This document shows positions 1 through 33,498 of a stretch of 57,850 nucleotides of DNA, piece after piece. A model generated the notes under the pieces. The model was not told the origin of the DNA. It ran no database searches and saw only the letters and a list, made by a program, of their open reading frames with translations. The DNA is from Acidobacteriota bacterium (lineage in GTDB: Bacteria > Acidobacteriota > Vicinamibacteria > Vicinamibacterales > UBA8438): positions 2,329 through 60,178 of the forward strand of contig VXME01000050.1 in assembly GCA_009861545.1 (NCBI GenBank), in the 5' to 3' direction. Positions within the stretch are counted from its first letter, which is position 1. Each line of letters starts with the position of its first letter. The translations under genes and the position numbers were made by a program.

Positions 1-579
1 TTATTCTCTGTGTTGGGCCGGGGGGCGCGGGTATTGGGTGCGTACAATTTGCTGTGGGGTTTGGGGGGGGTGTGTGCTGGTCGCCGCGGGGCGGGCGCGG
101 CGCCAGTCGTGGAGCTGGGCGTTGAGCGCCGCGAGGTGCTCCACGAGCATGAGCGTGGGCAGGTGACCGAACTTGGGCAGCCACACCTCGACGTCGCGAC
201 GCCGCTCGGCGCTACCGATCAGGTTGCCGGTCACTTGGTCGAGATAGCGCTTGGCATCGGCAGCGAGGGTGTCGCGCGCGGCGCGAGGCAATGTTCGCAG
301 GCTCGCCCGCAGTTCGTCGCGCCGGGCTCGGATGGTCTTGAGTGGAGTTCCGGGCGCGAAGCGGAGCTCGCGTTGGACACCATTAACCTTAACGGTTGCG
401 GCCAAGCCCCAGCGATCCTTGTAGATCCCGGGGGCGACGCGGTTACGGCTACGCGACTGCGAGGAGTGGCCATCGGCCCTAGGCGATCGTCGTCGCCCCT
501 CCGCATCGCGCCTTGTAGCACGTTGACTCGTGCTGGGCATCTCCTGTGCGGCGGTGGTGTTGCTGGTAGTCAAACCCAT
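1..579 (-). CDS. int: Tyrosine integrase of the ICE, N-terminal part (runs off the window)
   Basis: This would be the recombinase that integrates and excises the surrounding conjugative element. The visible part has a basic N-terminus, a short beta-rich stretch (GIYKDRWGLAATVKVNG) like an arm-binding domain, and a helical SAM-like core-binding region. The catalytic domain lies off the window, so no R/H/Y residues can be checked. The ATG at 579 has a good ribosome site (GAGGAGTG) 6 bases upstream. It lies 11 bp downstream of the repressor on the same strand, the usual place for an integrase at an element end. Family assignment is by domain layout only; it could be another core-binding-domain protein. 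Confidence 0.55.
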   Translation of the reverse strand: MGLTTSNTTAAQEMPSTSQRATRRDAEGRRRSPRADGHSSQSRSRNRVAPGIYKDRWGLAATVKVNGVQRELRFAPGTPLKTIRARRDELRASLRTLPRAARDTLAADAKRYLDQVTGNLIGSAERRRDVEVWLPKFGHLPTLMLVEHLAALNAQLHDWRRARPAATSTHPPQTPQQIVRTQYPRPPAQHRE

Positions 580-590: not shown

Positions 591-1304
591 TCACACGAAA
601 GTTCGCGCGGCCCACTTGACCTCGCCGATCACCGGCGCGTCGTCGGGCCACGGCACCGTCGGCCAGGTCTTCTTGTTCGGGTTGTCGCTGACGAGCTGCC
701 AAGCGCCGGCCCGATCCTTGCCGGCGCGCTTGACGACGAGCCCGTCGTCGGTCCGCACGACGAAGATGCGGCCCACCCTCCGGCGCTGACCCACCTGATG
801 CACCAGGATGGAGCAACCATCGACGAGAGTTGGCTCCATCGACTCGCCGAGGATCTGGATGACGCGGCACTCACTAGCGGCGAGACCGTGGCGGGCGAGC
901 CACTCCCGCCGGAACTTGATACGGCCTGTGATTCGCTCGTGGTCGACGACGGCGCCTCCGCCCGCGGCCCCGGCCAGCTCCGAGACGCCCACGTAGTCGC
1001 CGTCGTCTTCCGACGCGACGTACGCCTGCTGCTCCTCGAGGTCGCGGACCCGCGTCGTGGAGTCTGCCAGCTCCTTCGCGAGCTGACGGGCCGGGGTCGG
1101 ATCGGTTGTCAATCCGCAGAGGAAGTCCACCGAGACGCCGAGGGCCTTAGCTGCGGACGTCAGGTTGGCCACCGACAGGTTCGCGCGGCCGTGCTCGACC
1201 ATCGAGATAAGCGGGCGGGTGTTGCTGGTGCCCGCGGCGAGCTGCAGCTGTGAGAAACCCCGCAGTTTCCGGGCCTTCAGGAGGCGCTTTCCGACCGTGG
1301 TCAC
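591..1304 (-). CDS. Phage-type repressor: XRE helix-turn-helix plus S24 autopeptidase
   Basis: A 237-residue repressor of the CI/LexA type. Residues 1-65 form an XRE helix-turn-helix (GKRLLKARKLRGFSQLQLA). Residues 125-235 match an S24 peptidase, with the nucleophile in GESMEPTL and the general-base lysine in GLVVKRAG. In this family DNA damage and RecA trigger self-cleavage and derepression. The gene is divergent from a Cro-like gene across an 85-bp region with promoter and operator signals, so it probably keeps the ICE quiescent. The start is GTG at 1304, with AAGG just upstream on the minus strand. Confidence 0.85.
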   Translation of the reverse strand: MTTVGKRLLKARKLRGFSQLQLAAGTSNTRPLISMVEHGRANLSVANLTSAAKALGVSVDFLCGLTTDPTPARQLAKELADSTTRVRDLEEQQAYVASEDDGDYVGVSELAGAAGGGAVVDHERITGRIKFRREWLARHGLAASECRVIQILGESMEPTLVDGCSILVHQVGQRRRVGRIFVVRTDDGLVVKRAGKDRAGAWQLVSDNPNKKTWPTVPWPDDAPVIGEVKWAARTFV

Positions 1305-1332: not shown

Positions 1333-1362
1333 TTGACACGTAAACAATGCTTACTCTATGCT
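1333..1362 (+). promoter_or_regulatory. Rightward early promoter with operator palindrome
   Basis: A perfect -35 TTGACA (1333-1338) is followed after 18 bp by TATGCT (1357-1362). Between them lies a 15-bp imperfect palindrome, gtaaacaatgcttac (1340-1354), placed so that a dimeric repressor bound there would block RNA polymerase. It drives the Cro-like gene and probably the replication genes. The operator role is inferred from position and symmetry. Confidence 0.6.
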
Positions 1363-1389: not shown

Positions 1390-1629
1390 ATGACACCGAA
1401 GCCGATGACGCGACAGATCCGAAGCCGGCTCGCCGGGCTGAAGCTGCCGCAGCACACCCTGGCCGCCATGCTGGGCGTCAGCCAGACGAAGCTGAACCTC
1501 ATCCTCAACGGCCACCGGAAGGCGCCGTCGGGGTTCGAGGCGGAGGCCGGGGCGGCTCTCGACCGGCTGGAGCGGGCGGAGGCGGCGGCTGCCGAGGCGC
1601 GGGCCCGGGTGCTGGGAGACGCGGCATGA
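1390..1629 (+). CDS. Cro-like small helix-turn-helix protein
   Basis: A 79-residue DNA-binding protein with an XRE-type fold: LPQHTLAAMLGVSQTKLNLILNG reads as helices 2 and 3 of the motif, followed by an alanine-rich helix. The ATG at 1390 is preferred because TGAGGA lies 9 bases upstream; an in-frame ATG at 1375 lacks a clear ribosome site. Being first behind the rightward promoter and divergent from the S24 repressor, it most likely plays the Cro role in a bistable switch. Its stop overlaps the next start (ATGA). Confidence 0.65.
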   Translation: MTPKPMTRQIRSRLAGLKLPQHTLAAMLGVSQTKLNLILNGHRKAPSGFEAEAGAALDRLERAEAAAAEARARVLGDAA

Positions 1630-1886
1630 GTGCCCGGGACGACCGTGCCGACGACGCCGGTGGGACCGAGCCCCTGCCGGAGGTGCTGTTCCTCGACGAC
1701 GTGGCGAAGCTGCTGCGCTGCTCGCCCTCGACCATCAAGCGCCGGCTGCGCGCGCAGGTGTTCCCGGTCGCGCCGCTGCCGGGGATCGACAAGCGGCCCC
1801 GGTGGAGCAAGGCAGCGCTGCTGGAGTGGATCGCGGTCGGCGGATCGGGCGGTGCCGTGCGGGGTCGCGGGAGGCGGACGGCATGA
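1626..1886 (+). CDS. Excisionase-like helix-turn-helix protein
   Basis: An 86-residue protein with a MerR/excisionase-type winged helix in the middle (LFLDDVAKLLRCSPSTIKRRL, then a wing ending in RWSKAALLEWI). Proteins of this kind bend DNA at attachment sites and favour excision, or act as small regulators. Here it sits in the early operon of an ICE whose integrase is on the other strand, which fits an excisionase. It is translationally coupled on both sides by ATGA overlaps. The exact role is inferred. Confidence 0.6.
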   Translation: MSARDDRADDAGGTEPLPEVLFLDDVAKLLRCSPSTIKRRLRAQVFPVAPLPGIDKRPRWSKAALLEWIAVGGSGGAVRGRGRRTA

Positions 1887-2107
1887 GCACGGCCGCAGAA
1901 CGCAGCCGACGGGCGACCGACGGGCCGGACGGCGCCGGATGGCGCGTTGCGGATCCGGAAGCGGGTGATCCCGTGGTCGTCTGTCCGTGGTGCTGGCAGG
2001 CCGTGGCCGAGTACTGGCAGGCGCGGCCGGACGCGACCGTGCGCGTGGTCGGGCCGAGGCCGGAGTGGGCGCGCTGCGGCGTCTGCGATCCGGAGCGGGT
2101 GTGCTGA
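1883..2107 (+). CDS. Small zinc-ribbon-like protein, unknown function
   Basis: A 74-residue protein with two cysteine pairs, CPWC (residues 34-37) and CGVC near the C-terminus, about 30 residues apart, as in a small zinc ribbon. It has no other recognisable feature. Coupling by ATGA to the excisionase-like gene puts it in the early operon. About 100 bp separate it from the replication initiator. Function unknown. Confidence 0.5.
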   Translation: MSTAAERSRRATDGPDGAGWRVADPEAGDPVVVCPWCWQAVAEYWQARPDATVRVVGPRPEWARCGVCDPERVC

Positions 2108-2207: not shown

Positions 2208-3020
2208 ATGCCCGCCGACCGGCTCCTGCACGCGCGGCTCGGTCACTCGGCGAAGGTCGCGAGGCTGACGGACCTGGAGTACCGGGTTTGGACGACCTAC
2301 GTGCTGGCGGCGGACGACTTCGGGGTGATGCGCGCCGACGCGGTGGCGTTCCAGGCGGCGCACGACGCCTTGGGCACGCGCCCGGCGGAGGAGATCGCGA
2401 GGTGCGTCGAGCGGCTCGTCGAGGCCGGCCTCGTGGCGGCGTTCGAACACCAGGGCGCGCGCTGCCTGTACCAGTGGAACTGGCAGGACTTCCAGCGGGT
2501 GCGGTTCCCGGCGCGGACGCTGCACCCGCTGCCCGAGTCGGCCGAGATCAGCGCGAGGACGCACCACCTGTGGTCGGTGCATCCGGGCGGCGCCCGCGTG
2601 CCGGCGCTTCCGCAGAACTTCGGCACTGCTTCCGCACAACTTCGGAAGTTGTTCCGCAGAAGTGCGGAAGCGCTTCCGGACAACTCCGGAAGCGCCGCGG
2701 CTGCGGTACCGGAGAACAGCGGGCGCAACGCCGCACCGTCGCCAGGGCTCCGTGAAACGGGGCCGGATCCGCTTCCGCAGGACTTCGGCACCACTTCGGA
2801 AGTTGTTCCGAACCACTCCCGCACTACTTCCGCAGAACTTCCGTCTCGCGCGCGCGCGTACGAAACGGCTAACGGCTTACGGCCAACAGGAGAGGGGGGT
2901 GCGGGGGGAGAGGGGCGGCGACGGCAGGCGAAGGCGTCGCTGCGCGGCGGCGGCGGTGCGCGGTCGACCGAGCGGCGCGAGGCGTACGACGCGGGCATCA
3001 AGCGGGCGAAGCAGGGATGA
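2208..3020 (+). CDS. Replication initiator / replisome organiser-like protein
   Basis: A 270-residue protein. Residues 1-115 resemble the winged-helix N-terminal domain of phage replisome organisers (LTDLEYRVWTTYVLAADDFG ... CVERLVEAGLV). The middle is low-complexity and is encoded over an iteron array. The C-terminus is basic. The next gene is a DnaC-like ATPase, reproducing the lambda O/P or phage organiser/loader pairing, in which the organiser binds the origin and the loader brings DnaB. The ATG at 2208 follows GGCGAGGTAGCG. The pairing and embedded iterons carry the call; sequence similarity alone would be weak. Confidence 0.6.
   Translation: MPADRLLHARLGHSAKVARLTDLEYRVWTTYVLAADDFGVMRADAVAFQAAHDALGTRPAEEIARCVERLVEAGLVAAFEHQGARCLYQWNWQDFQRVRFPARTLHPLPESAEISARTHHLWSVHPGGARVPALPQNFGTASAQLRKLFRRSAEALPDNSGSAAAAVPENSGRNAAPSPGLRETGPDPLPQDFGTTSEVVPNHSRTTSAELPSRARAYETANGLRPTGEGGAGGEGRRRQAKASLRGGGGARSTERREAYDAGIKRAKQG
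2609..2843 (+). repeat. Iteron array inside the initiator gene: candidate replication origin
   Basis: A 16-bp motif close to TTCCGCAGAACTTCGG occurs at 2609, 2631, 2653 and 2675, exactly 22 bp apart (two helical turns). Diverged copies lie at 2707, 2773 and 2828. Because 22 is not a multiple of three, the periodicity cannot come from a protein repeat; it is selected at the DNA level. Origins embedded in initiator genes are known from lambda O and related phages. Confidence 0.7.
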
Positions 3021-3748
3021 GCGTGGGGTGCGGGCGGTGCGAGCGGACTCCGGGTTGGGAGTCGGTCGAGGTCGAAGGCGTGACCCGTCTGCAGCGCTGC
3101 GGCTGCTGGACGGCGGCGCACGCCGCGCCGCCCTCGGTGCCGCGGGAGTTCCGGGACGCGCGGTGGTCGACGTGGCGCAAGACGGCGGAGAACCGGCACG
3201 CGCTGGACGAGGCGCAAGCCTTCGCGCGGGCCGGCGCCGAGGGGCCGGACCTGTTCCTGTGCGGTTCGGTCGGTACGGGCAAGACGCGGCTGGCCTGCAC
3301 GGTGGTCAACGAGGCGTGGAAAGCCGGCGAGCGGTCGGTCGCGTTCGAGCGGGTGCCGATGCTGCTCTACCGGCTACAGCCGCACGGTACGGCCGCGGAG
3401 ACGGCCGGGGAGTTCAACCGGTTGACGGCGGCGCGGCTGCTGGTGCTCGACGACTTGGGGGCGGAGCGGGACGCGGCGACGGACTACACCCGGCGGACGC
3501 TCCTGATGCTCTACGAGGCGCGGCACGATGGGGGCCGCCGGACGATCTGGACGTCGAACAAGACGCCGAGCGAGGTGGGCGCGTTCATGGGGGACGACCG
3601 GCTGTCGAGCCGCATCGCCGGCCGTTGCCGCGTGATCGAGCTGGAGGGCCGCGACTGGCGGCTGGCGGGCCGCGCCGCGTGGCGGCAGGCCCAGCGCGAC
3701 CCGGTTTCCGGAGAACGCGCTGCGCCGGTGATGGAGCGGGCGAGGTGA
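3017..3748 (+). CDS. DnaC/IstB-like AAA+ helicase loader
   Basis: A 243-residue AAA+ ATPase. An N-terminal zinc-binding segment has CGRC (residues 5-8) and CGC about 20 residues later. Walker A is GSVGTGKTR near residue 83 and Walker B is LLVLDDLG near residue 141, followed by a sensor-like TSNK. This matches DnaC/phage P-type loaders that place DnaB helicase on origin DNA. It is coupled by ATGA to the initiator, forming a replication module. A role in autonomous replication of the excised ICE is likely. Confidence 0.8.
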   Translation: MSVGCGRCERTPGWESVEVEGVTRLQRCGCWTAAHAAPPSVPREFRDARWSTWRKTAENRHALDEAQAFARAGAEGPDLFLCGSVGTGKTRLACTVVNEAWKAGERSVAFERVPMLLYRLQPHGTAAETAGEFNRLTAARLLVLDDLGAERDAATDYTRRTLLMLYEARHDGGRRTIWTSNKTPSEVGAFMGDDRLSSRIAGRCRVIELEGRDWRLAGRAAWRQAQRDPVSGERAAPVMERAR

Positions 3749-5149: not shown

Positions 5150-5434
5150 ATGCGGAAGCGATGGTGGGTGTGGAGCGGGCTGGTGGCGGCGCTGGCCGCC
5201 GCAGGTGAACGGGCGCTGTTCGCGCAGGGCACGTCGCCCTGGGTTCAGGCGGTCAACAACCTGCAGCAGGCGTTCACGGGGCCGATCGCGCGGGGTCTGG
5301 CCCTGGTGGCGATCGTGGTCGGGGGACTGATGTTCGCGTTCCAGGAAGGCGGCAGCAAGCAGGCGCTGGCCGGGATCATCTTCGGCCTCGGCATGGCGCT
5401 GGGCGCGGCCAACTTCATCGCCTGGCTGTTCTGA
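5150..5434 (+). CDS. virB2: VirB2/TrbC-type conjugative pilin
   Basis: A 94-residue pre-pilin: basic N-terminus with a signal-like helix (residues 3-24), a possible cleavage site near ALFAQG, then two hydrophobic helices (IARGLALVAIVVGGLMFAF and GIIFGLGMALGAANFIAWLF) joined by a short polar loop, EGGSKQ. This is the standard VirB2/TrbC layout. A strong GAGGAGGAGGAG ribosome site precedes the ATG at 5150, fitting a highly expressed subunit. VirB3 and VirB4 follow directly. Confidence 0.85.
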   Translation: MRKRWWVWSGLVAALAAAGERALFAQGTSPWVQAVNNLQQAFTGPIARGLALVAIVVGGLMFAFQEGGSKQALAGIIFGLGMALGAANFIAWLF

Positions 5435-5739
5435 TGCGCGGGCGAAGGCAGTGGAAGGGCTACACGATCCTGAGCCAGCCGCTCACGGTCCTGGGGGTCG
5501 AGCGGCGGTTCTTCCTGCTGGCGGCGACGCTGGCCGCCGCCATCTGGAACGCGGTCAACAGCCTGTCGGCGGGCGGGCTGGTGTTCGGGGTGCTGTACGC
5601 GGCCGGCTGGCTCGCGTGGCGGCGCGACCAGGACCTGGTCGGCGTGGTCCGGGCCGCGATCCGGTACCGCAGCCGCTACGACTCGGGGCTGCTGGAGGAC
5701 CGCTCGCCGTACGTCGTGATCGAGAGGAGCGAGGGGTGA
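5434..5739 (+). CDS. virB3: VirB3/TrbD inner-membrane protein
   Basis: A 101-residue protein with the VirB3/TrbD pattern: an N-terminal segment ILSQPLTVLGVERRFF followed by one or two adjacent hydrophobic stretches (LLAATLAAAIWNAV, LVFGVLYAAGWLAW) and a polar C-terminus. VirB3 works with the VirB4 ATPase in pilus biogenesis. It abuts virB2 and overlaps the virB4 start. Confidence 0.8.
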   Translation: MRGRRQWKGYTILSQPLTVLGVERRFFLLAATLAAAIWNAVNSLSAGGLVFGVLYAAGWLAWRRDQDLVGVVRAAIRYRSRYDSGLLEDRSPYVVIERSEG

Positions 5740-7513
5740 CGGGCGACGCCGGGCCGCTGGCCCACGAGCTGCCGTACTGGGGCTGGGTCGACGAGCGCAC
5801 GCTGCTGACGCGCGCCGGCGAGCTGCTGACGGTGGGCGCGCTGACGCCCGTCGTCGTCGACGGCCGGAGGGCGGAGGACCTCGACGAGGTGGCGGGGCGC
5901 TGGCAGCGGATGCTCTCCGGGCTGCCGCCCGAGATGCGGGTGTCGTGGATCGTGGAGCGGCGGCCGGCGGCGTTCGACGAGCGCCCGCCGTCCTCGGACA
6001 TCGCCGCGCTCGCCCAGCGCAAGCGGCAGGCGTTCCTCGAGGGCCGCGTGCAGGACGTCGAGACGCACGTCGTGTGGAGCTTCGACCCGCGGCTGCGCCA
6101 GTCGGCCGCCTCTCGCGGGAGCGCGTGGTGGCGAAGCCTGGCCGCCGAGTGGCTGCGGCGCCGCCGCGCGCCGCACGAGTCGGCCTTCCTGGCCGCGGAC
6201 ATCGCGCGGGCGGTCAAGACGGAGGCGGCGGTGGTCGCGGCCTCGGCGGCGCGGGTCGTCGACGCGACTCCCATCGAGATCCTGACCGCTGAGAAGGCGG
6301 CGGCCGTGCTCTACCGGCTGGTCAACGGCGGCCTGGGGAGCTGGACGGCCGGCATGCGGACGGACGCGGGCGTCAACTGGCGGCTCGCCGGCGAGGACGT
6401 GGCCGCGGACCGGCAGGCGCTGCACGTCGGCGGCAGGCAGTTCGGGATCTGGTCGTGCGTGGCCCCGCCGGCGGCGGTGACGGCGAACGCGCTGGCCGAG
6501 CTGTATGCCCTGCCGGCCCCGATGACGGCGGTCGTCGAGTGGCGGCCGTGGTCCCGGGAGGCGGCGCGGAGGAAGCTGCGCTCCGCCCAGCGGCACTACT
6601 TCTCGAAGCGCTACTCGATGGCCGCGCACATGCAGGAGAAGGAGGGGACGGCGGCGGCGCTCGAGGACGCCGCGGCGAGCATCGAGGCGAACCGGGCCGG
6701 CGCGGCCCTGGTCGAGCTGGAGACCGAGGGGGTCTCGTACGGCGACGTGGCGCTGTCGGTGGCGTTGCGCGGCTCCGCCGGGCAGCTGGAGCAGTGGGGC
6801 GCGGACATCCAGCGCGTGTTCGGCGGCCTGGACGCGAAGGCGGCGCGAGAGTCCTACGGGCAGCTCGCCGTCTGGTTCGGGCGGCTGCCGGGGCAGCCGG
6901 CCTCGAAGCAGCCGCGGCGCGTGTTCGTCTCGGCGGGGGTGGCGGCGTGCGTGGCGCCGCTCTTCGGCCCGCCGCGGGGCGAGCGGCGCTGCACCCACCT
7001 CGATGCGCCCGCGCTGACCGTCTTCGAGACGCCGGCCGGCACGCCCTATCACTACGACCTGTTCGGGGGCCGCGACGTCGGGCACACGCTGATGCTCGGG
7101 GCGACCGGCGCGGGGAAGAGCTTCACCCTCAACTTCCTCCTCGTCCAGGCCCTCCAGTACGACCCGCGGGTCCTGATCCTAGACCTGGGCGGCAGCTACC
7201 GCGCCCTGACGCAGTTCCTCGGGGGCGGCTACCTGGAGGTGTCTCCCGAGAAGGACGCGATACCGCTGCGCCCGTTCGGGCTGGAGCCGATGGAACGGAC
7301 GGTGCAGTTCCTCTCGGCGTGGGTGCTGCGGCTGCTGCGGATCGGCGGGTGGGAGGAGTCGAGCGGCGACCTCTCCGAGGTGCGGGCGCGCATCGAGGAC
7401 CTGTACGCGCTGGCTCCGGTCCGGCGGTCGCTGGGCAACCTGGTGCGGTCGCTGCCGGCCCCGATGTGGCCGGCGCTGTCGCGCTGGCACGGCTCGGGCG
7501 CCTGGGGCAAGTG

Positions 7514-7522
7514 GTTCGACAA
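7514..7522. repeat. Left attachment repeat of element A
   Basis: GTTCGACAA here is repeated at 18129-18137, where the virB4 frame resumes. The next five bases also agree except one (TCCGC against CCCGC). This is the expected signature of tyrosine-recombinase insertion. The offset of 10,615 bp is the inferred element length. Confidence 0.8.
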
Positions 7523-7576
7523 TCCGCTAATCCCTATCCTGGATCGGTCCAAGTCGAGTTACGTAAGTATATGTGT

Positions 7577-7593
7577 AGTAATAATTTATTACT
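7577..7593. promoter_or_regulatory. Palindromic site near the left end of element A, candidate integrase arm site
   Basis: agtaataatttattact is a perfect 8+1+8 palindrome in otherwise GC-rich DNA. Element B has agtaatcaattattact at the matching place (28950-28966), and its right end has gttattact (45220-45228). Conservation of position suggests a recombinase or accessory binding site. Confidence 0.5.
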
Positions 7594-7605
7594 CGATACG
7601 GACCC

Positions 7606-7634
7606 TTGACGGGGTCGACGAAGCCCTGTAGCAT
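7606..7634 (+). promoter_or_regulatory. Integrase promoter, element A
   Basis: TTGACG (7606-7611), 17-bp spacer, TAGCAT (7629-7634). Element B has TTGACG-N17-TACGAT at the same distance from its integrase although the spacers differ, so the two boxes are conserved while the sequence between them is not. Confidence 0.65.
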
Positions 7635-7666
7635 GCTCTTTGATCCGCCACTAAATGAGGGGAGAG

Positions 7667-8902
7667 ATGGGTAGGCGAGTGACACTCCAGGCCACACCGC
7701 GCGGACGTAAACCCCGGGGCCGGCACCCCAAGCAGGCCCTCTCGACTGCCTTCGTCCGCAACGTCGCCCAGGTCGGCCGGTACTGCGACGGGAACGGGTT
7801 GTACCTCGAGGTGAAGCCCACCGGCACGCGGAGCTGGGTCCAACGGCTCGCCATCCGCGGACGCCGACGCGAGCTTGGGCTCGGCGGCTTCCCGCTCGTC
7901 CCACTCAAGGAGGCTCGCGCCCAAGCCCTCGCCAACCGCCGGCTCGCCCGCGCCGGGGGCGATCCGTTGGCGGAGAAGCGCCGCGCGCGGTCGATGCCCA
8001 CGTTCGCCGACGCCGCCGAACGCGTCTGGAACCAGATGCAGCCGGGCTGGCGCAACCAGAAGCACATCCAGAACTGGATCTCGGGTCTGCGGCGGTTCGC
8101 ATTCCCGCGCCTCGGCAAGATTCCGGTTTCCGAGGTGTCCAGCGCCGACCTGGTCGAGGCGTTGCGGCCAGTCTGGCACGTCCGGCCGGCGACGGCGCGC
8201 CGCGTACGCCAGCGCATCGGCACCGTGATGGAGTGGGCCGTCGCGATGGAGTACCGGAACGACAACCCGTGCGATCGCATCGGGCCGGCCCTCGGTCCGC
8301 AGCGTGACCTCGTGCAGCACATGCGGGCGCTGCCGCATGCCGAAGTCGCCGCAGCCATCACCATGGTGCGCGCGACCGCTGCGACGGCCCCGGTCAAGCT
8401 GGCGTTCGAGTTTCTCGTGCTGACCGCGGCCCGGTCGGGCGAGGTGCGCGGAGCGCTGTGGACCGAGATCGACCTGACGGATCGCCTGTGGACGATTCCC
8501 CCGACGCGGATGAAGGCGACACGCGAGCACCGCGTTCCGTTGTCCGGGCGGGCAATGGAGATTCTCGACGCGGCGCGGACGCTCAACGCTGGCGACCCCC
8601 TTGTGTTTCCGGGCCAGGGCGGGAAGCCGATTTCTCAGATGAGGTTGCCCAAACTCCTACAGAACCACGGAATCGCGGCCGTACCACACGGCTTTCGGTC
8701 GTCCTTTCGGGATTGGGCCGCCGAGGAGACGGACCACCCGCGCGAGGTCGTCGAGGCGGCGCTGGCTCACGCCGTGGGCAACCGGACCGAGGCGGCCTAC
8801 GCCCGCTCCGACCTGTTCGAGCGCCGCCGGCGGTTGATGGATGACTGGTCCGCCTACGTCGGCGGCGGCGCGGGAGCGCCCGCCGATGATCGCCCATCTT
8901 GA
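7667..8902 (+). CDS. int: Tyrosine integrase of element A (DUF4102/P4 type)
   Basis: About 411 residues. The N-terminal arm-binding domain (DGNGLYLEVKPTGTRSWVQR ... ELGLGGFPLVPLKEAR) is typical of P4-like integrases, followed by a core-binding domain and the catalytic domain: Arg in TAARSGEVRG, HGFRSS (HxxR), a His in ALAHAVGN and the Tyr in AAYARSD. The ATG at 7667 is chosen because GAGGGGAG lies just before it; ATG 7655 has no ribosome site. It is close to the element B integrase over its whole length, yet the two use unrelated target sequences. The stop overlaps the partner gene by 17 bp. Confidence 0.92.
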   Translation: MGRRVTLQATPRGRKPRGRHPKQALSTAFVRNVAQVGRYCDGNGLYLEVKPTGTRSWVQRLAIRGRRRELGLGGFPLVPLKEARAQALANRRLARAGGDPLAEKRRARSMPTFADAAERVWNQMQPGWRNQKHIQNWISGLRRFAFPRLGKIPVSEVSSADLVEALRPVWHVRPATARRVRQRIGTVMEWAVAMEYRNDNPCDRIGPALGPQRDLVQHMRALPHAEVAAAITMVRATAATAPVKLAFEFLVLTAARSGEVRGALWTEIDLTDRLWTIPPTRMKATREHRVPLSGRAMEILDAARTLNAGDPLVFPGQGGKPISQMRLPKLLQNHGIAAVPHGFRSSFRDWAAEETDHPREVVEAALAHAVGNRTEAAYARSDLFERRRRLMDDWSAYVGGGAGAPADDRPS

Positions 8903-10997: not shown

Positions 10998-11068
10998 TTC
11001 TCCATCCGGCGTCGCCGGACCCTGTATTCGTGAAACAGCGGTACCGTAGTTTCTCTTTAGGGTGAACG

Positions 11069-13435: not shown

Positions 13436-13615
13436 GGCGGCTCCAGGTTGTCAACCTTGAGGTGCTGCCAGCGTCGCCCAAGGCCTTCATCGGCCTATAG
13501 ACGTGGGCCTCAACGTGGGGTAAGACTAGCCACTAGTGCACGTAACTCTTTTAGATGAAGCAACTTACGCCACACGAGCGATCGCCACCGCCATCCGCTT
13601 TCTCCCCTCCACCTC

Positions 13616-18128: not shown

Positions 18129-18137
18129 GTTCGACAA
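18129..18137. repeat. Right attachment repeat of element A
   Basis: GTTCGACAA, identical to 7514-7522. The virB4 frame resumes in phase here (TTC GAC AAC CCG). Confidence 0.8.
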
Positions 18138-18771
18138 CCCGCCGGCCCCGCAGGCGGACCTGACGCTCTCCGACTGGCAGGTGATCGACCTGGCCGGCGC
18201 GGTCGAGCACGAGGACTGGTGCGAGGCGGCGCTTCTGTACCTGCTCGAGAGGCTGCGGACCGAGATCGAATCGCCGGCCGAGGCGACGCGCCTCAAGCTG
18301 ATGGTGGTCGACGAGGCGTGGCGGTACCTGCGCGATCCGGTGGTGCTGGGCCGGCTCACGGAGGCCGCGCGCACGTGGCGCAAGCGCAACGCGGCGCTGA
18401 TCCTGGCGACCCAGTCGGTGACGGACATCACGCAGACGCCGGGCGCGGCGGCGCTCCTCGAGTCGATGCCGACGCGGCTCTTCCTGGCGAATCCGGACTT
18501 CCCGGAGGCGGGGCAGGCCACCTTCCAGCTCGGCGACGACGAGCTGCGGACGGTGCGCGAGCTGGAACCCAAGCGGGAGCTGTACCTGCGGCGGCCCACG
18601 ACGGCGGCCGTGCTGCGCCTGGCGGTCGATCCGGAGAGCTACTGGCTCTATACGTCGTCGGCGGGCGAGGCGCAGCGGCGCGCGGAGATGGTGGCGCGCT
18701 ACGGGGTGGAGGGCGCAATTGTCCGCCTGGCGGCGGGACTGGATCACAAGCGGGCGGCGGTGCTCGGGTGA
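18138..18771 (+). pseudogene. virB4: VirB4 ATPase, 3' part
   Basis: It continues virB4 without a start of its own: PPAPQADLTLSDWQVIDLAG, then Walker B LKLMVVDEAW about 50 residues in, the TQSVTDI motif and the C-terminal TrbE region to the stop at 18771. Residues match what the 5' part lacks. Joined at the repeat, the two halves give a complete ATPase. An open frame continues upstream into element A, but that part is element DNA. Confidence 0.9.
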
Positions 18772-18785
18772 CGGAAGGGGGAGCG

Positions 18786-19733
18786 ATGAGGGGCGTGGGA
18801 CGAGTACTGGCCGCGGTCATGTGTTGCGGCCTGCTGGCGGCGGCGCCGGCCGCGTCCGGGCAGGGCATCCGGGCGGTGCCGCCGGGAGCGGCGGAGTCCG
18901 CGATCGAGGTCATGGCGCGGGTGCGGCACACGACGACGATCGTGCTGCCGCGCGGGGAGCGCATCGCCGACGTGGTGGCCGGGGACGCGGACTACTGGGA
19001 CGTGTCGGCCGCGGAGAACGTGGCGTACCTCAAGCCGCTGGAGGCGGGCGTCGCGTCGAACGTGACCCTGGTCGCCGAGAGCGGCCGGGTGTGGGCGCTG
19101 CTGGTGGCCGAGTCGTCCGCCGGGGAGCCGGACCTGGTGGTCTACGTCGAAGAGCCGGGACGCGCAGCGCAGGCGGAGGTAGTGCGTCATGCGCCCGCGT
19201 TCGTGGCGGGCGGCGAGCTGGCCGCGCACGAGGCCGAGGAGGCGGCGGCGCGGGCCGCGCTGCTGGCGATCGAGGAGGCGGCGGCCGAAGAGGTCGCGGC
19301 CATCCGGGCGGAGCACGACGCGGCGTGGACGCGTTGGCGCGACGAGTACCCCCGGCGGCTGCGCTTCCCCTACCGGCTCGACCCGGCGGCTCTCGGGCCG
19401 CCCTTCGAGGTCGAGGCGCTGTGGCACGACGGGCGCTTCACGTACCTGCGCTCGCGGGCCGAGGAGACGCCGGCGCTCTACGAGCTGCGGGAGGCGGACC
19501 GGCGCTTCGGCCGCACGGGGCTGGAGCCGAGCCTCGTGTCGTACGAGGTGTTCGACGACGGGCTGTACGTGGCGGACCACGTGCTCGGGCCGGGGCGCCT
19601 CCGGATCGGCGACTCCGAGACCGGGTGGACGGTGGGCCGGGAGGACCGGAAGTGGACGTGGAAGACGCGCACGGTGGTGGGCGGGATGTTCGCGGCGGTG
19701 GCGACGGTGCTGATCCAGGGGATGGCCCGATGA
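18786..19733 (+). CDS. virB9: VirB9/TrbG-like protein, copy 1
   Basis: A 315-residue exported protein: signal peptide (residues 1-25, AAAPAASGQ), then the VirB9/CagX N-terminal core (VRHTTTIVLPRGERIADVVA ... DYWDVS), a helical alanine-rich insert, and a C-terminal beta domain (LWHDGRFTYLRS). A C-terminal hydrophobic segment (TVVGGMFAAVATVLIQG) is unusual for VirB9. VirB9 forms the outer-membrane core complex with VirB7 and VirB10. A second, shorter copy follows with a 4-bp overlap. Confidence 0.8.
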   Translation: MRGVGRVLAAVMCCGLLAAAPAASGQGIRAVPPGAAESAIEVMARVRHTTTIVLPRGERIADVVAGDADYWDVSAAENVAYLKPLEAGVASNVTLVAESGRVWALLVAESSAGEPDLVVYVEEPGRAAQAEVVRHAPAFVAGGELAAHEAEEAAARAALLAIEEAAAEEVAAIRAEHDAAWTRWRDEYPRRLRFPYRLDPAALGPPFEVEALWHDGRFTYLRSRAEETPALYELREADRRFGRTGLEPSLVSYEVFDDGLYVADHVLGPGRLRIGDSETGWTVGREDRKWTWKTRTVVGGMFAAVATVLIQGMAR

Positions 19734-20542
19734 GGGCCTGGATCCTGGCGCTCGGGTGCGCCCTGCTGGCGGCGCCCGCCGCGGCGCAGGGGGTGCGCGC
19801 GGCCCCGGCGGGCGGCGACGAGCCGATCAGGGTAGCGGCGCGGGTGCGGCACGTGACCGCGGTCGTGCTTCCCGAGACGGCGGAGATCGTCGAGGTCGTC
19901 GTCGGCGACGCCGAGCAGTGGGACGTGTCGGCGGCGGCGCACCTGGCCTTCGTCCGGCCGCTCGCCGAGGGCGCCCGCTCGAACGCGGTTCTGCTGACGG
20001 CGGCCGGCCGGATCGTGCCGCTGGCGCTGGTCGAGAGCGCGGACGCCCCGGTGGACGCCGTCGTCCACGTGCAGCCCGCGGAGGCCGGGACGGCGGGCGC
20101 CGGCCCGGTGCTGGCGGCTTCCGAGGCGGTCGCGGCGGCGGCTCGGCGCGCGGCGGAGGCGTGGAAGGCGGTCGCGGCAGCGGAGGCGCAGGCGGCCGAG
20201 CGGGTCGAGGCGGCGCGGGCCGCCGCACGGGACAGGCTCGACGCGGACCGCGAGGCGTACGCCCGGCAGGCGCGGTTCGACTACCGCTGGTCCGCCGGAG
20301 CGGCCGGCTACCCGTGGCTGGTCGAGGGGATGTGGCACGACGGCCGGCGGACCTACCTGCGCACGCGCGCGGTCGCGCCCGTGCTCTACGAGCGGGTGGA
20401 CGGCGAGCTGGTCGAGGTGGCGGTCTCCGCTCCGGTCGACGGGGTGCTGCACGTTGCCGGGCGGGTGCTCGGGGCCGGCGCGCTGGAGGCCGGGGGGCGG
20501 CTGATCCCGTGGACGGCGGCGCCGAGAGAGGCGGGTCCGTGA
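19730..20542 (+). CDS. virB9: VirB9/TrbG-like protein, copy 2
   Basis: A 270-residue paralogue of the preceding protein: signal peptide ending AAPAAAQG, VRHVTAVVLPETAEIVEVVVG ... EQWDVSAA, an alanine-rich helical segment, and GMWHDGRRTYLRTRA. It lacks the C-terminal hydrophobic segment of copy 1. Tandem duplication suggests that two related subunits replace a single VirB9 ring component, or that one does the work of VirB7. Coupled by overlaps to copy 1 and virB10. Confidence 0.75.
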   Translation: MRAWILALGCALLAAPAAAQGVRAAPAGGDEPIRVAARVRHVTAVVLPETAEIVEVVVGDAEQWDVSAAAHLAFVRPLAEGARSNAVLLTAAGRIVPLALVESADAPVDAVVHVQPAEAGTAGAGPVLAASEAVAAAARRAAEAWKAVAAAEAQAAERVEAARAAARDRLDADREAYARQARFDYRWSAGAAGYPWLVEGMWHDGRRTYLRTRAVAPVLYERVDGELVEVAVSAPVDGVLHVAGRVLGAGALEAGGRLIPWTAAPREAGP

Positions 20543-23003: not shown

Positions 23004-23985
23004 ATGACGCTCAACGAGCTGCTGCTGATGCTGCAGCAGGCCGGGATCCTGACGGGCCAGATCATGGCCGCGGTGGCGCCCGGCCGGGGCGACCGCGGGG
23101 ATGCAGCTCTGGCAGGGGCTGGCGCTCATCGTCGTGGTCTGGACCGGGGCGCAGATGGCGCTCTCGGGCGGCGGGATCAACATGGCCGCCGTCGTCCGGA
23201 TGGTCATCGGGCTTTCGATCCCGCTCGGCATGCTCCAGTTCTACACGGCGCCCCTGCCGGGCGCGGGCCGCAGCGTGCCCGAGCTGATCACCGGCATGGG
23301 CGAGTGGCTGCAGATGATGATCGTCGCCGACGCCGGCACGGCGATGATGGAGCAGCTCGCGCTTGCGGGCACCGCCTTCCGGGAGCTGCTCGCCGGCGAC
23401 GGGGTCTTCGGGGGGATGGCGTCCCTCGGCTGGAGCGTCGTGACGGATCTGCCGGCCGTGCTCGACGCGGCGTTCGACCTGGCCGTCACCGTGGCGCTGA
23501 TGATGCTGCTGGCGGTGGGCCTGGTCACGGTCTTCGCCATCGGGCAGGCGCAGGTCATGTGGGCGCAGCTCGCGCTGTCGCTCGCGCTCGTGCTCGGCCC
23601 GATCTTCATCCCCTGGCTGCTGGTGCCGCAGCTCTCCTTCCTCTTCTGGGGGTGGCTGCGGACCGTGCTCGTCTACTCGCTGTACGGCGCGGTGGCCGCC
23701 GCCGTCTTCCGGGTCATCACCGAGCTGGGCGTGTTCGTTGTCCAGGGCTGGACGGGCGACATGGCGGCCGGCGTCGAGTGGGCGGGGCCGGACGGAATCA
23801 TGACGGCGTGGCTGCGGTCGCTCGTGACCATCCCCTACATCGTGGCGGCGGGTCTGGCGACGGGCAAGGTCGGCGAGCTGACGCAGATGCTGATCTCGGG
23901 CGGCGGCAACGTCGGCTCCGGCGCCTCGGGGCGGGCGATGCAGACGGCGGCCGTGGCGCGGGTCGCGGTGACGGGAGGGGCGTAG
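23004..23985 (+). pseudogene. virB6: VirB6/TrbL inner-membrane channel protein, frameshift at about 23075
   Basis: AAGGAGAAGGCGAGTC precedes ATG 23004, which begins MTLNELLLMLQQAGILTGQI. The frame then changes near 23070-23080; the +1 frame reads PAGATAGMQLWQGLALIVVV and continues to 23985 with at least five transmembrane helices and the TrbL-type FAIGQAQVMWAQLALSLALV. The full product would be about 327 residues. A one-base indel in gtggcgcccgg explains it, either an assembly error or a real mutation. Translation from ATG 23101 would give a shortened but largely intact protein. Confidence 0.75.
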
Positions 23986-23987
23986 AG

Positions 23988-24641
23988 ATGGCGGCGCGGG
24001 AGTTCGCGGAGATATGGGGGGAGCAGATGCACGCGGCGCGGCATCTGCGCCTGGTGACCGGCGCGCTGTCGCTCGTGATCCTGATTCTCGGGATTGCGCT
24101 CGTGCGCCTGGCCTGGGCGCCGCAGCCGAAGCCGCTCGTCGTGCGGGTCGACGAGGTGGGACGGGCAGAGGCGGTGGCCTACGAGGCGATGGAGGCGCAG
24201 GCCGACCCGCTGGACGCGACCACCGGGTTCTTCCTGCACCGCTTCGTCGTCGACCACTACTCGCGGCGGCAGGGCACGGTGCGCGAGTACTGGGAGCGGT
24301 CGCTCTGGTTCCTGACGCCGGAGGTGGCCAACGCGGCCTACGCGGAGCAGGCGGAGGACGTGGCGGCCACCGCGGTCGGGCTGCGCGACGAGGAGCTGCA
24401 CGTCGAGGATGTGGCCGTGCGCATCCTGCCGCAGCCGGCGGAGCCGCACGGCGCGGCGGCGACCTTCGACCTGGTGCGCATGCGCGGCGGCGAGGAGCTG
24501 GCCCGCGAGTCCTGGTCGGTCTCGATGCGCTTCTCGTTCCTGCCGCAGATCCCGGCCGAGCTGGTCGTCCGCAACCCGATGGGGATCGTGATCTCGTTCC
24601 TCCAGGGCGACCGGATAGTGACGAGCGGGGAGAACCGGTGA
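23988..24641 (+). CDS. virB8: VirB8/TrbF assembly protein
   Basis: A 217-residue bitopic protein: short cytoplasmic N-terminus, one transmembrane helix (LRLVTGALSLVILILGIALV), and a periplasmic VirB8 fold with RFVVDHYSRRQGTVREYWE and a conserved FSFLPQIPAELVVRNPMGI end. VirB8 nucleates the secretion channel. It follows virB6 by 2 bp and overlaps the next start (GTGA). Confidence 0.85.
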   Translation: MAAREFAEIWGEQMHAARHLRLVTGALSLVILILGIALVRLAWAPQPKPLVVRVDEVGRAEAVAYEAMEAQADPLDATTGFFLHRFVVDHYSRRQGTVREYWERSLWFLTPEVANAAYAEQAEDVAATAVGLRDEELHVEDVAVRILPQPAEPHGAAATFDLVRMRGGEELARESWSVSMRFSFLPQIPAELVVRNPMGIVISFLQGDRIVTSGENR

Positions 24642-25594
24642 TCCCGCACCTGAACGGCCGCGCGGCGGCGCTCGAACCGCTCGGCTGGACCGGCCGCGCG
24701 GCCGAGTGGCTGGCCCTGGTCTGCCTGCACAGCGGGGTCTTCCTGCGCGCGCAGTATCTGGCGTTCCTCGGCGGCGGCCACCCCGAGGCGGCGGCTCGAT
24801 TCGTCGAGGAGTACGGCGCGTGGTGCGCGGGAAGGGCCGGGCGTCCGGCGTCCGTGGAGCGGACGTGGCGCGGGTCGACCCGGCTGTGCATGGTGGCGCC
24901 GCGGGCGTTGTACCGAGCCCTGGGGGCAGAGCACGTGCGCCATCGGCGCGAGGCGTCGCCGGCCGTCGTGCTGCGGCGGCTGCTGTCGCTCGACTACGTG
25001 GTCGACCATCCGGGGGAGCCGTGGCTTGCGACCGAGGCGGAGAAGGTCTCGGCGCTCGAGGCGGCGGGCGCTCCGGAGCGGTCCCTGCCGCGCCGCGTGT
25101 ACCGGGGCCGGCGCGGCTCGCGCCGCCGCTACTTCGCGCACAAGCTGCCGCTCGCCCTCGATTCCGGGCGGGCGACGTTCGTGTTCGTCCAGGCGGAGGA
25201 CGTGACCCCGAGCGGGGTCCGGACGTGGGGCGAGTCGCACGCCGCGCTGTGGGCGGCGCTGCGCGCGGCCGGCCGCGCCGTCGAGGTCGTCGTCGTGGGC
25301 CGGGACCCGGAGCGCCTGGCGGCGGCCGAGCCGGTCCTCGCCGGCTGGACGAAGGCGGCGGCGGCAGGCGCCGCGGCCGAGGGCGGGGCCGAGGCGGCGC
25401 GGCTCGCAAGGGCGGAGTTCGCGGAGATCCAAGCGGCGGTGGCGCGCGGCGACCTCGCCGCGCTGGAGGCCCACGGCGGCATCAACGGCGCGCTGGGCAG
25501 GATGCGCGAGCTGTCAGCCGCCGCCGCGGGCGCCGGCGGGGCGGTGGCGATCACGAGCGGGCGGACGTGGCGCTCGAAGCGGGTGCCGTCATGA
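24638..25594 (+). CDS. ICE transfer-operon copy of the integrase-partner family
   Basis: A 318-residue protein from GTG 24638, overlapping both virB8 and virD4, so it belongs to the transfer operon. It is colinear with the partner genes of elements A and B: EWLALVCLHSGVFLRAQYLA, VLRRLLSLDYVV, ATEAEKV, RTWGESHAALWAAL, VVVVGRDPERLAA, and the same C-terminal GRTWRSKRVPS. Identity to A and B is visibly lower than between A and B. Placement next to the coupling protein hints at substrate selection or DNA processing at the channel entrance. Family unrecognised, with a possible N-terminal winged helix. Confidence 0.75.
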   Translation: MIPHLNGRAAALEPLGWTGRAAEWLALVCLHSGVFLRAQYLAFLGGGHPEAAARFVEEYGAWCAGRAGRPASVERTWRGSTRLCMVAPRALYRALGAEHVRHRREASPAVVLRRLLSLDYVVDHPGEPWLATEAEKVSALEAAGAPERSLPRRVYRGRRGSRRRYFAHKLPLALDSGRATFVFVQAEDVTPSGVRTWGESHAALWAALRAAGRAVEVVVVGRDPERLAAAEPVLAGWTKAAAAGAAAEGGAEAARLARAEFAEIQAAVARGDLAALEAHGGINGALGRMRELSAAAAGAGGAVAITSGRTWRSKRVPS

Positions 25595-27600
25595 TGCGCC
25601 TGCTGGCCGGCGCGTCGGCCGCCGCTGCCGTGTGGGTGTGGTGGCCGTTCCCGGCGCCCGGCGCCGATCCGGTCGCCGACCTGATCGCGATGCACTCGCC
25701 GCGGCTGCACGCCACGATCCGCGCCTGGCACTACCTGGCGCCCGCCCTGGCGGTCGTCGGGGCCTGGTCGGTGGCCACCTCGGTAGGGCTGGTGTGGCTC
25801 GCGGGCGGGCGCAGCCGGCCCCCCGCCGGCACGCTGCCGCCGTGGCCGGTCGACGCGGCGAACCCGTCTCCCGCCCTGGTGGTCGGCGAGGTGCACCATC
25901 CGGTCACCGGACGGGAGGCGGCATCGCCGCGGTGGCTCGTGATCCCCGAGACGGGCCTCTACACGGGCATGCTCATCTGCGGCGCGATCGGCTCCGGGAA
26001 GACGTCGGCCTGCATGCGCCCGTTCGCGCGCCAGCTCCTGAGCTGGCAGGCGAAGGACTCGCGCCGCCGTATCGCCGGCCTGGTGCTGGAGGTCAAGGGC
26101 GACTTCTGCCATCAGGTGCGCGGGATCCTGAACGACGCCGGGCGCGCCGGGGACTACGTCGAGCTGGGGATCGGCGGGCGCTGGCGCTGGAACCCGCTGG
26201 GCGACGATCTCCTGGACTCCTACTCGCTCGCTTACACCATCGCGAGCCTCATCAACCAGCTCTTCGGGCGCTCGAAGGAGCCGTTCTGGCAGCAGGCGTA
26301 CGTCAATCTCGTGCGCTGGATCATCGAGCTGCACCGCATGGCGCCCGAGCGCTGGGTGACGCTGCAGGACGTCTACCGCTGCACGCTCGACGCGGAGAGG
26401 ATCGACGCGAAGATCGCCGAGGTCGAGGCGTTGGTCGAGCCGCAGGCGACGGTCCGGGTGCGGATGGCGGACGTGGCCCCGCACGGCGACGAGCTGGCGG
26501 CGTGGTCGTGGCTGCCGGAGGCCGGCGGGATCCTCCGGATGTCGGACGACCGGGAGCTGTGTGAGCAGCTGGCGAAGCTCGGGATTCCGTTCGAGATGGA
26601 CCGGCGGGCGCCGGCGGACCCGACGCGCCCGCAGCGTCTCGACGCGGTGAAGCGCTGGTACGCGCAGGACTGGCTGACTATCGATCCGAAGCTGCGGTCC
26701 AGCATCATCGAGGGCCTGAGCGTGTTCCTCTCGGTCTTCGACCTGCCCGACGTCGCCGCGACCTTCTGCCCGCCGAAGCCGGCGGCCGAGCCGGCCGGCG
26801 CGCAGGGCCCGTCGGGCGCCGATGCGCCTGACGCGCCGTCCGCCGACGCGGTGGCCGTCGCCAGGCCGCTGCCGCCGCTCGACCAGGTGATCGACGATGG
26901 CCGGGTGCTGTGCCTGAACATGGCCGCCGGCACGAACCCGGCCCTCGCCCGCGCGGTGGGCGTGCTCCTCAAGCAGGCGTGGCTCCAGACGCTGCTCCGC
27001 CGCCCCGCGGAGATGCAGCGGCGTCCGGGGCGCGTCTTCCGGCCGGCGATGTTCCTCTGCGACGAGTACCAGACCTTCGCCACGGTGGGCGAGGACGACC
27101 CGGCCGGCGACGAGAAGATGTTCGCGCTGACGCGCCAGTCGCGCCTGATCCCGATCGTGGCGACGCAGTCGATCTCGTCGCTGCGCGCCGTGCTCGGCCA
27201 GTCCGAGGCGTGGCGGGCGCTGCTCCAGACGCTGCGCACCCGCATCTTCCTGTCGCTCGCCGACGACTCGTCGGCGCAGATCGCGAGCACGCTCTGCGGC
27301 CAGGTGGCCCGCATGAAGGCCTCCTACACGGTCTCGGAGCAGACCCAGCGTGCCGGCGCGTCGCTGCTGTCGGGCTCCGCCGGGGGCGGGACCGGCAGCG
27401 TCGGGGCGAGCAAGGCGTTCTCCGAGCGCCGCGAGCCGCTGTTCCATCCGCGCGACTTCGCCCTGCTGGGCAACTGCCAGGCCATCGTCATGCCCTACGA
27501 CGGCCGCCGCTCGCTCGACGCCCGGCGCTGCTACCTCAAGCCGGACTTCCTGCCGCGGGACCGCCCCTACTGGCGCGCCCGCGAGGCCGGAGAGCTGTAG
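25591..27600 (+). CDS. virD4: VirD4/TraG coupling ATPase
   Basis: A 669-residue type IV coupling protein: two N-terminal transmembrane helices (about residues 5-25 and 50-75), Walker A GAIGSGKTS near residue 131, a Walker B-like FLCDEYQTF, TQSISSL, and a TraG C-terminal segment. An alanine/proline-rich insert lies at about residues 395-425. It brings DNA-relaxase complexes to the channel. The ATG at 25591 overlaps the preceding stop. No relaxase is recognisable in the window. Confidence 0.9.
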   Translation: MMRLLAGASAAAAVWVWWPFPAPGADPVADLIAMHSPRLHATIRAWHYLAPALAVVGAWSVATSVGLVWLAGGRSRPPAGTLPPWPVDAANPSPALVVGEVHHPVTGREAASPRWLVIPETGLYTGMLICGAIGSGKTSACMRPFARQLLSWQAKDSRRRIAGLVLEVKGDFCHQVRGILNDAGRAGDYVELGIGGRWRWNPLGDDLLDSYSLAYTIASLINQLFGRSKEPFWQQAYVNLVRWIIELHRMAPERWVTLQDVYRCTLDAERIDAKIAEVEALVEPQATVRVRMADVAPHGDELAAWSWLPEAGGILRMSDDRELCEQLAKLGIPFEMDRRAPADPTRPQRLDAVKRWYAQDWLTIDPKLRSSIIEGLSVFLSVFDLPDVAATFCPPKPAAEPAGAQGPSGADAPDAPSADAVAVARPLPPLDQVIDDGRVLCLNMAAGTNPALARAVGVLLKQAWLQTLLRRPAEMQRRPGRVFRPAMFLCDEYQTFATVGEDDPAGDEKMFALTRQSRLIPIVATQSISSLRAVLGQSEAWRALLQTLRTRIFLSLADDSSAQIASTLCGQVARMKASYTVSEQTQRAGASLLSGSAGGGTGSVGASKAFSERREPLFHPRDFALLGNCQAIVMPYDGRRSLDARRCYLKPDFLPRDRPYWRAREAGEL

Positions 27601-28611
27601 ATGGAGCTGAACGTCGCGGACCTGAAGCCGTTCCTGCCGGGGCTCGAGGCCGTACTCGACGACGAGGCGGTCTCCGAGGTGATGGTCAACGGCCCCGCGG
27701 CGGTCTTCGTCGAGCGGGCCGGCCGGGTGATCGCCCTCGACGCCCCGGCGCTCACCGCCGAGGCCGTGGCGCGGGCCGCGATCCAGATCGCCCGCCCGCT
27801 GGGCGAGGACCCGGCGACCGATCCGATCATCGACGCGAGGCTCGCGCACGGCTCCCGCGTGGCCGTGTGCAGCCCGCCCGCGGCGCCGGCGACGGCGATC
27901 ACGATCCGCCGCTTCGGCGGCCGGGAGTTCACGATCGCCGAGCTGACCGCGAGCGGCTCGCTGCCCGCTGCCGTGGTCGACGCGACCGCGGACGTGCTCC
28001 GAACGGAACGCAACGTGCTGATCTCGGGCGGCACCGGGTCGGGCAAGACGACGTTGCTCAACGCGCTGGTGGCGCTGCTCCCGGCCGAGGGTCGGGTGAT
28101 CTCGATCGAGGACACCCTGGAGCTGCGGCTCCGCCGGACGAACTGCCTGCGCTTCGAGGCGAGGGGGCTCGCGGGCCGGAACGTGACGATCCGGGACTTG
28201 GTGCGCCATGCGCTGCGGCACCGGCCGGATCACATCGTCGTCGGCGAGGTCCGCGGCGCCGAGGCGGCCGACCTGCTCCAGGCGCTGAACACGGGGCACG
28301 GCGGCAGCCTGGCCACCGTGCACGCGAACAACGCCGCGGCGGCGCTCTCGCGCCTGGCGACCTGCGCCATGCAGGCGGGCGACGCGCTGCCGTGGGCGGT
28401 GGTCTGCCGCGGCGTGGTCGACGGCATCGAGGCGGTCATACACCAGACGCGGACGCCCGAGGGCGTGCGCCGCGTCGACCAGATGGTGCGCGTGCGGGAC
28501 TACGACGCGCGGGACAACCGGTGGGTGGTCGAGCCGGTCTGGCCGGCCGCCGGCGCGGAGGCGGTGACGAACGGAACGGAGGAATGGAGGTGCAGGGATG
28601 AACGAACGTGA
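27601..28611 (+). CDS. virB11: VirB11/TrbB hexameric ATPase
   Basis: A 336-residue secretion ATPase that switches the machine between pilus building and DNA transfer. N-terminal domain (SEVMVNGPAAVFVERAG), Walker A GGTGSGKTT near residue 143, Walker B-like HIVVGEVRGAEAADLLQ, and the His box TGHGGSLATVHANNAAAAL. It abuts virD4 with no gap. The C-terminal tail beyond WPAAGAEA is short and polar, and its coding sequence overlaps the next small gene. Confidence 0.93.
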   Translation: MELNVADLKPFLPGLEAVLDDEAVSEVMVNGPAAVFVERAGRVIALDAPALTAEAVARAAIQIARPLGEDPATDPIIDARLAHGSRVAVCSPPAAPATAITIRRFGGREFTIAELTASGSLPAAVVDATADVLRTERNVLISGGTGSGKTTLLNALVALLPAEGRVISIEDTLELRLRRTNCLRFEARGLAGRNVTIRDLVRHALRHRPDHIVVGEVRGAEAADLLQALNTGHGGSLATVHANNAAAALSRLATCAMQAGDALPWAVVCRGVVDGIEAVIHQTRTPEGVRRVDQMVRVRDYDARDNRWVVEPVWPAAGAEAVTNGTEEWRCRDERT

Positions 28612-33494: not shown

Positions 33495-33498
33495 GCCG

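Follow-up and report, generated by a model that had tools for sequence, protein, structure and literature searches.

An array of 11-bp repeats inside an initiator gene as a probable lambda-like replication origin of an integrative, probably conjugative element in Vicinamibacteria

We find that an integrative, probably conjugative element of a Vicinamibacteria genome carries an array of 11-bp repeat units inside its replication initiator gene, and that the stretch of this gene from position 2608 to about 2920 is very probably a lambda-like theta origin (oriV). The window, that is, the whole 57.85-kb stretch of DNA analysed here, corresponds to positions 2329-60178 of contig C50 in a genome of 6.35 Mb, and the array sits in the open reading frame 2208-3020. 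A first-pass annotation of this DNA had proposed a lambda-style origin within the initiator gene; this proposal is strongly supported by a winged-helix initiator-like gene, by the DnaC-like loader gene that adjoins it and by a DNA period of 11/22 bp that is conserved in homologues. The features of the window on which the argument draws are as follows.

1..579, minus strand: N-terminal half of the tyrosine integrase of the element; its C-terminal half is outside the window, on the left, beyond a run of N
591..1304, minus strand: CI-like repressor with HTH_3 and Peptidase_S24 domains (phrog_4, 1.7e-31)
1333..1362, plus strand: pR-like promoter of sigma-70-like type between the divergent cI and cro genes, TTGACA-18-TATGCT (consensus match only)
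1390..1629, plus strand: Cro-like HTH protein (phrog_1468)
1626..1886, plus strand: Xis-like HTH_17 protein (phrog_66, excisionase and transcriptional regulator)
1883..2107, plus strand: ORF of 74 aa, its place conserved in relatives
2208..3020, plus strand: replication initiator of 270 aa with a lambda O-like role (phrog_2149, phrog_1408)
2208..2510, plus strand: part coding for the winged-helix domain (predicted structure and fold matches)
2608..2695, no strand: iteron block 1, with eight 11-bp units that pair into four 22-bp dyads
2696..2772, no strand: degenerate stretch, seven 11-bp units in register with a single recognisable unit at 2707
2773..2849, no strand: iteron block 2, six clear 11-bp units and one partial, in the same register as block 1
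2847..2858, no strand: (CG)6 run between array and heptads
2865..2883, no strand: heptads ACGGCTAACGGCTTACGGC, candidate opening or accessory element
2889..2920, no strand: G-rich purine tract
3017..3748, plus strand: DnaC/IstB-like helicase loader with a lambda P-like role, overlapping the initiator stop (phrog_50, 6.5e-37)
5434..5739, plus strand: conserved gene, presumably VirB3 from its position
5742..7526, plus strand: VirB4, N-terminal part (TraG P-loop), interrupted
18130..18771, plus strand: VirB4, C-terminal part
18719..20542, plus strand: VirB9/CagX-like
23004..24641, plus strand: VirB8-like
24706..27600, plus strand: VirD4/TraG-like coupling protein
27601..28611, plus strand: VirB11-like ATPase (T2SSE)

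The array, the initiator and the DNA that follows

The first-pass annotation described four repeat copies 22 bp apart, accompanied by diverged copies and running out of phase with the codons. We confirm the spacing: four CTTCCG-N8-CGGAAG dyads start at 2607, 2629, 2651 and 2673, exactly 22 bp from one to the next, and further copies lie at 2772 and 2783, beyond the four-dyad run. The pattern is stronger than had been described. What has to be corrected is the size of the unit, which is 11 bp and not 22 bp, each 22-bp dyad being made of two 11-bp half-sites placed head-to-head. Six places within the array match the dyad symmetry at 10-12 of its 12 positions, TRF detects one array of 22-bp period at 2604-2695 and others of 22/11 bp at 2772-2843, and the autocorrelation of the array is highest at lags 22, 33, 11, 44 and 55, followed by 66 and 77. 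When a unit is called wherever at least 8 of 9 informative positions match, a scan of 2560-2900 yields 14 units spanning 2608-2838, all 14 in the single register (position-2608) mod 11 = 0; 36 more matches by the same criterion lie elsewhere in the window. The second block starts 165 bp (15 x 11 bp) after the start of the first, and the register is maintained across the degenerate 77-bp gap and over 231 bp in all. Because neither 11 nor 22 is a multiple of 3, the repeat passes through every codon phase.

To see how much of this pattern comes from the encoded protein, we compare the array with synonymous codon shuffles of the gene. None of 5000 shuffles comes up to the observed autocorrelation at lag 22, to its maximum over all lags or to the core count. 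Elsewhere in the window, scanned with the CRISPR arrays excluded, none of 2164 stretches of 250 nt reaches the array value. The signal at lag 33, which is 11 codons, is largely accounted for by the protein (z 0.4 against the same shuffles).

The protein encoded by this gene matches two profiles of replication initiation proteins, phrog_2149 (E 8.1e-9, residues 35-247) and phrog_1408 (2e-5). It has no match to any Pfam family at E 0.1, including Phage_rep_O, which we take to be the Pfam name of the lambda O protein family, and RepA_N, and it matches no NCBIfam family; by sequence it therefore belongs neither with lambda O nor with the RepA_N proteins. Solved structures searched by sequence give nothing convincing (best E 0.03). 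A model of residues 1-135, built from 15 sequences (mean pLDDT 73.6, with block means of 86-96 over residues 21-90), shows the helix and strand order of a winged helix, and its fold matches in the PDB are mostly winged-helix proteins: MecI, Fur, ORC/Cdc6 and, weakly (E 0.18), 4pt7, which is titled 'Structure of initiator' and is listed among RepA_N/DnaD structures (PMC7145576). These matches of a predicted model indicate a fold and not a function. The window initiator does not have a part of about 100 residues that is found in the proteins of C108, L021, L019/L023 and L024, and the DnaD C-terminal domain, present in the relative from Paenibacillus phage Mock2, is not found in it.

In most homologues a (CG)n run comes after the array, and after it come heptads (TAACGGC)n or, in their place, another short repeat or an AC-rich tract. 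The G-rich tract is present in 9 of 19 genes. Heptads are present in 11 of the 19, nine times on the coding strand and twice on the opposite strand (L118, L121); since L067, L118 and L121 were recruited via the heptad pattern, the count without these three is 8 of 16. The opposite-strand heptads of L121 translate as PLAVSRKPLAVS, where the coding-strand form reads TANGLRLTANG, and we conclude that the DNA, not the peptide, is under selection, given that the other strand encodes other amino acids. In the 6.35-Mb genome of the window the heptad pattern occurs only in the three initiator genes, and a reversed control gives no match. We reject the heptads as a specific mark of the origin: only 8 of 92 viral stretches with ACGGCTNACGGCTNACGG have an initiator N-domain in the spanning frame, and most of the others are TCACGGC-type repeats without 11-bp flanks. 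Heptads alone are thus not diagnostic, and what is informative is their fixed place after the array. Many unrelated viral contigs (L041-L129) carry such TCACGGC-type heptads, which translate as SRLTAHG or SRQPSAV, again without the flanking 11-bp units. In one homologue (L035, 6001-7230) some 150 extra residues are inserted ahead of the linker, and GCCGGCAA-type repeats replace TTCCG before the heptads. In 15 of 18 genes (L035 left out) the 40-mer of lowest stability falls within the array or shortly past it; in the window gene it lies inside the array and has 55% GC, and by the stability of 40-mers no classical AT-rich opening region (DUE) is found in the window initiator gene.

Conservation of period and gene order

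Loss of the periodicity in close homologues had been set in the first-pass annotation as a refutation test for the in-gene iterons, and we find the period kept at the DNA level. The comparison takes in 18 homologues besides the window, of which seven belong to its element family and eleven come from viral contigs; L016 (array truncated), L037 (identical to L036) and duplicate fetches of one locus were left out, and L035 was scored from nt 800 onward because of its insert. Against synonymous shuffles the z-scores summed over the 18 are 13.5 at lag 11, 9.7 at lag 22 and 7.7 at lag 44, then 7.1 at lag 7 and 5.7 at lag 14, with all other lags at or below 3.5; because the homologues are related, these sums are not probabilities. 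At lag 11, z is at least 2 in 14 of the 18, and lag 11 or 22 ranks top in 10; four (L014, L035, L067, L118) show no clear lag-11 signal of their own. The same statistic at lag 11 gives 0.8 for six loader genes and -0.9 for eight repressor genes, which rules out a general coding periodicity; the loader genes do show lag 33, with a value of 4.4. The sequence of the unit drifts between homologues (TTCCGCAnnAC, TTCCCGnAAnA and others), and its period and its place in the gene stay. Between iteron type and predicted recognition helix we see a weak covariation (overall rho 0.48), for which the best 10-residue windows start at residues 91-99, outside the recognition helix, so that the match is not helix-specific.

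The surroundings of the gene are conserved as well. Of the 8 other places that we compare, 7 have the order int-cI-cro-xis-orf-O, the exception (L016) being truncated and without xis and orf. The loader gene comes next in 5 of the 8 (L009, L134-L137), and the contigs of L010 and L016 end before the loader position. In another copy (L138, 3994-5447) a truncated initiator is succeeded at once by virB9, and neither the loader nor virB2-virB4 is found; the origin module is thus broken in some copies. A search of the cI/cro gap for sigma-70-like promoters finds one, against 0.0 expected in shuffles, by consensus match only.

The element that carries the array, and what else the repeats could be

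The annotation's view of a conjugative element is borne out by the VirB4, VirB8, VirB9, VirB11 and VirD4-like genes of the window together with an integrase that adjoins a tRNA gene in two relatives, and from this gene content we regard the element as integrative and probably conjugative. The integrase is present in all nine copies; in two of the nine its end lies 15 bp from a tRNA-Arg (L138) and 189 bp from a tRNA-Val (L134), and a third tRNA lies 1.7 kb away. Genes of a type IV secretion system (T4SS) follow the module in three relatives (L134, L135, L138), the contigs of L009, L010, L016 and L137 end too early to show this region, and L136 has no T4SS gene within 4.4 kb past the last conserved gene. 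A search for relaxases of PF03432, PF08751 and PF03389 gives no match on the element, whose right part is not delimited; one partial PF03432 match lies on another contig.

The window copy is itself a host to other DNA. Its virB4 is split: the N part runs to about 7526, the C part resumes near 18130, and each edge bears the residues FDNP. In L134 and L135 the same gene is uninterrupted beside the same module. With virB4 split by an island, the window copy is probably transfer-defective, to judge from its gene content. The island (7527-18129) holds a tyrosine integrase with Arm-DNA-bind_3 (7655-8902), a NACHT ATPase (11069-13435) and a restriction-modification pair of SmaI-like nuclease and N6/N4 methylase (14027-15747). 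Just after virB11, the stretch 29050-44709 looks like a second guest island carrying CRISPR-Cas: it starts with a second integrase of the same type, followed by cas3, csd1/cas8c, which we take to be of a type I-C-like system, and long CRISPR arrays. The stretch 45332-46951 encodes an ArdC-like anti-restriction protein that includes a zincin-like peptidase domain. As for the limits of the assembly, a run of N splits the integrase of the element just left of the window, and the two ends of contig C50 (window 57797-57850 and C50:1-54) are inverted copies of each other, with no end overlap that would indicate a circular contig.

How else might the repeats be read? They could be products of slippage, or a repeat at the level of the protein in a low-complexity linker with no role as DNA. 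The linker is indeed low in complexity and the protein does explain most of lag 33, while no synonymous shuffle comes up to the array in lag 22, in maximum autocorrelation or in core count, the register holds from the first unit to the last, the homologues keep the period with differing unit sequences, and the heptads occur on either strand. The shuffles and the strand-swapped heptads rule out a repeat of the protein, and this whole account seems to us scarcely credible. It is also improbable, if somewhat less so, that the array is a regulatory region (sites for autorepression by the initiator, or repressor operators) or an incompatibility locus, with replication starting elsewhere. Such dyads would fit dimeric regulators, and the predicted winged-helix model is as close to the repressors MecI and Fur as it is to initiators. 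Set against this, the array lies about 1.25 kb downstream of the promoter and within the initiator gene, a conserved (CG)n/heptad module comes after it, and it travels with the initiator and loader genes in elements and is found in phage initiators too.

A further account accepts the origin as real and denies the excised, replicating ICE: the module would act by replication in place, or be derived from a satellite or phage, or the copy would be a dead remnant. The island that splits virB4, the lack of a match to the three relaxase families on the element, the presence of the same initiator type on viral contigs, the copy without loader and virB2-virB4 (L138) and the one without a visible T4SS gene in 4.4 kb (L136) all speak for it; the unbroken virB4 beside the same module in L134 and L135, the integrase and Xis-like genes, and the two integrases close to tRNA genes speak against it. 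We consider this account rather unlikely and favour a lambda-like origin in an element that, we infer, replicates as an ICE after excision, its array probably bound by its own initiator.

Known systems, proposed mechanism and meaning

The origin of lambda lies inside the initiator gene and is built of four iterons, each a 19-bp inverted repeat, together with a 40-bp A+T-rich region (PMC5043065, PMC7466680), and it needs transcription running through it (PMC5043065). The window shares with O and ori-lambda the probable in-gene origin, the dyad-symmetric repeats and the loader gene next in line, and its pR-like promoter may likewise be CI-controlled and transcribe through the origin; it differs in its 11-bp units in one register, its (CG)n/heptad module and the lack of an A+T-rich block, and in an initiator without any Pfam match. 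The replisome organizer gp38 of SPP1 binds direct repeats in its own gene at oriL, with an AT-rich DUE and the loader gp39 (PMC6316719), and the lactococcal organizers ORF13 of TP901-1 and Rep2009 of Tuc2009 likewise bind direct repeats in their own genes (PMC8965321). By their description these resemble the window in having in-gene initiator repeats, and unlike the window element they are phages and not conjugative elements. Initiators of phrog_2149 and phrog_1408 and phage initiators with DnaD domains are alike in profile match and, in 6 of 8 distant phages, in 10-/11-bp in-gene periods; the Mock2 relative differs by its DnaD C-terminal domain, which the window protein does not have. The conjugative elements SXT/R391 and ICEBs1 combine CI- or ImmR-like control with plasmid-like replication after excision, from oriT with a relaxase (PMC4489591), whereas the window element has a separate lambda-type pair of initiator and loader and an origin. 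In-gene origins are thus already known, and the one-turn units, the heptads and the conjugative setting make the window origin a variant. Judged by titles and abstract openings, in a literature search that most subscription papers fall outside of, we find no in-gene origin of this kind in a conjugative element and no one-turn iteron arrays in initiators of the phrog_2149/1408 type.

The mechanism that we propose is as follows. While the element is integrated, CI would repress the promoter; upon induction, a single transcript would yield Xis, initiator and loader and run through the origin, so that excision and copying would be turned on together. The winged-helix domain of the initiator would bind the 11-bp units lined up along a single face of the helix, one subunit per turn, in dyads, and the bound initiator would wrap or bend the array. 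Either the array itself or the flanking (CG)n/heptad stretch would then open, and the loader and the host replicative helicase would be handed to the opened strand.

The element family is narrowly distributed. Relatives of the initiator found by protein search are Vicinamibacteria MAGs and one short contig labelled Gammaproteobacteria; with the own genome counted in each set, 3 of 149 relatives and 1 of 396 genomes of the phylum are positive, and named phages and plasmids include none with the window initiator protein. Genome G000 holds at least three members of the family (contigs C50, C108, C53) and G021 at least four (C4, C7, C50, C200), with different iteron types on the members that reside together; these may possibly be compatibility groups.

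Beyond the family, eight distant phage relatives were reached through its viral members, at about 25-35% identity to the queries and three of them only via the Mock2 protein. Six (L141, L142, L143, L145, L146, L148) exceed the 95% null at lag 10, 11 or near-multiples, L147 lies just below it and L144 shows lag 8; units of 10 bp are more frequent in these phages than units of 11 bp. In L141, L142, L143 and L145 (gut, Paenibacillus and Rhodobacteraceae phages) the 10-/11-bp in-gene repeats are followed by AATCC-, AGAAC- or GGAAAATAAA-like tandem repeats, which encode low-complexity peptides. From sequence comparison, winged-helix phage initiators would seem to have a design in common, of which the window element is one member. 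Tentatively, and as a joint reading that we find somewhat doubtful when taken as a whole, the design would be a continuous array of one-turn (10-/11-bp) half-sites in the initiator linker, unlike discrete iterons of 18-22 bp, with the register kept across degenerate stretches; the tract of tandem repeats that follows, be it heptads on either strand, hexads or pentads, would be an opening or accessory site, and the initiator, with one subunit at each turn, would form a regular filament along one face of the DNA.

If this joint reading is true, the low-complexity linkers that are frequent in phage initiators would be the translated shadow of origin DNA, and phages and conjugative elements would exchange an origin module. 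A DNA period of 11 or 10 bp in the initiator linker, beyond codon effects, gives a route from sequence alone to the origins of uncultured phages and integrative elements, and the binding of one initiator subunit per helical turn becomes a testable question. For the Vicinamibacteria, where titles and abstract openings show no study of such an arrangement, the finding sets a module for control and replication of the lambda type beside a conjugation system.
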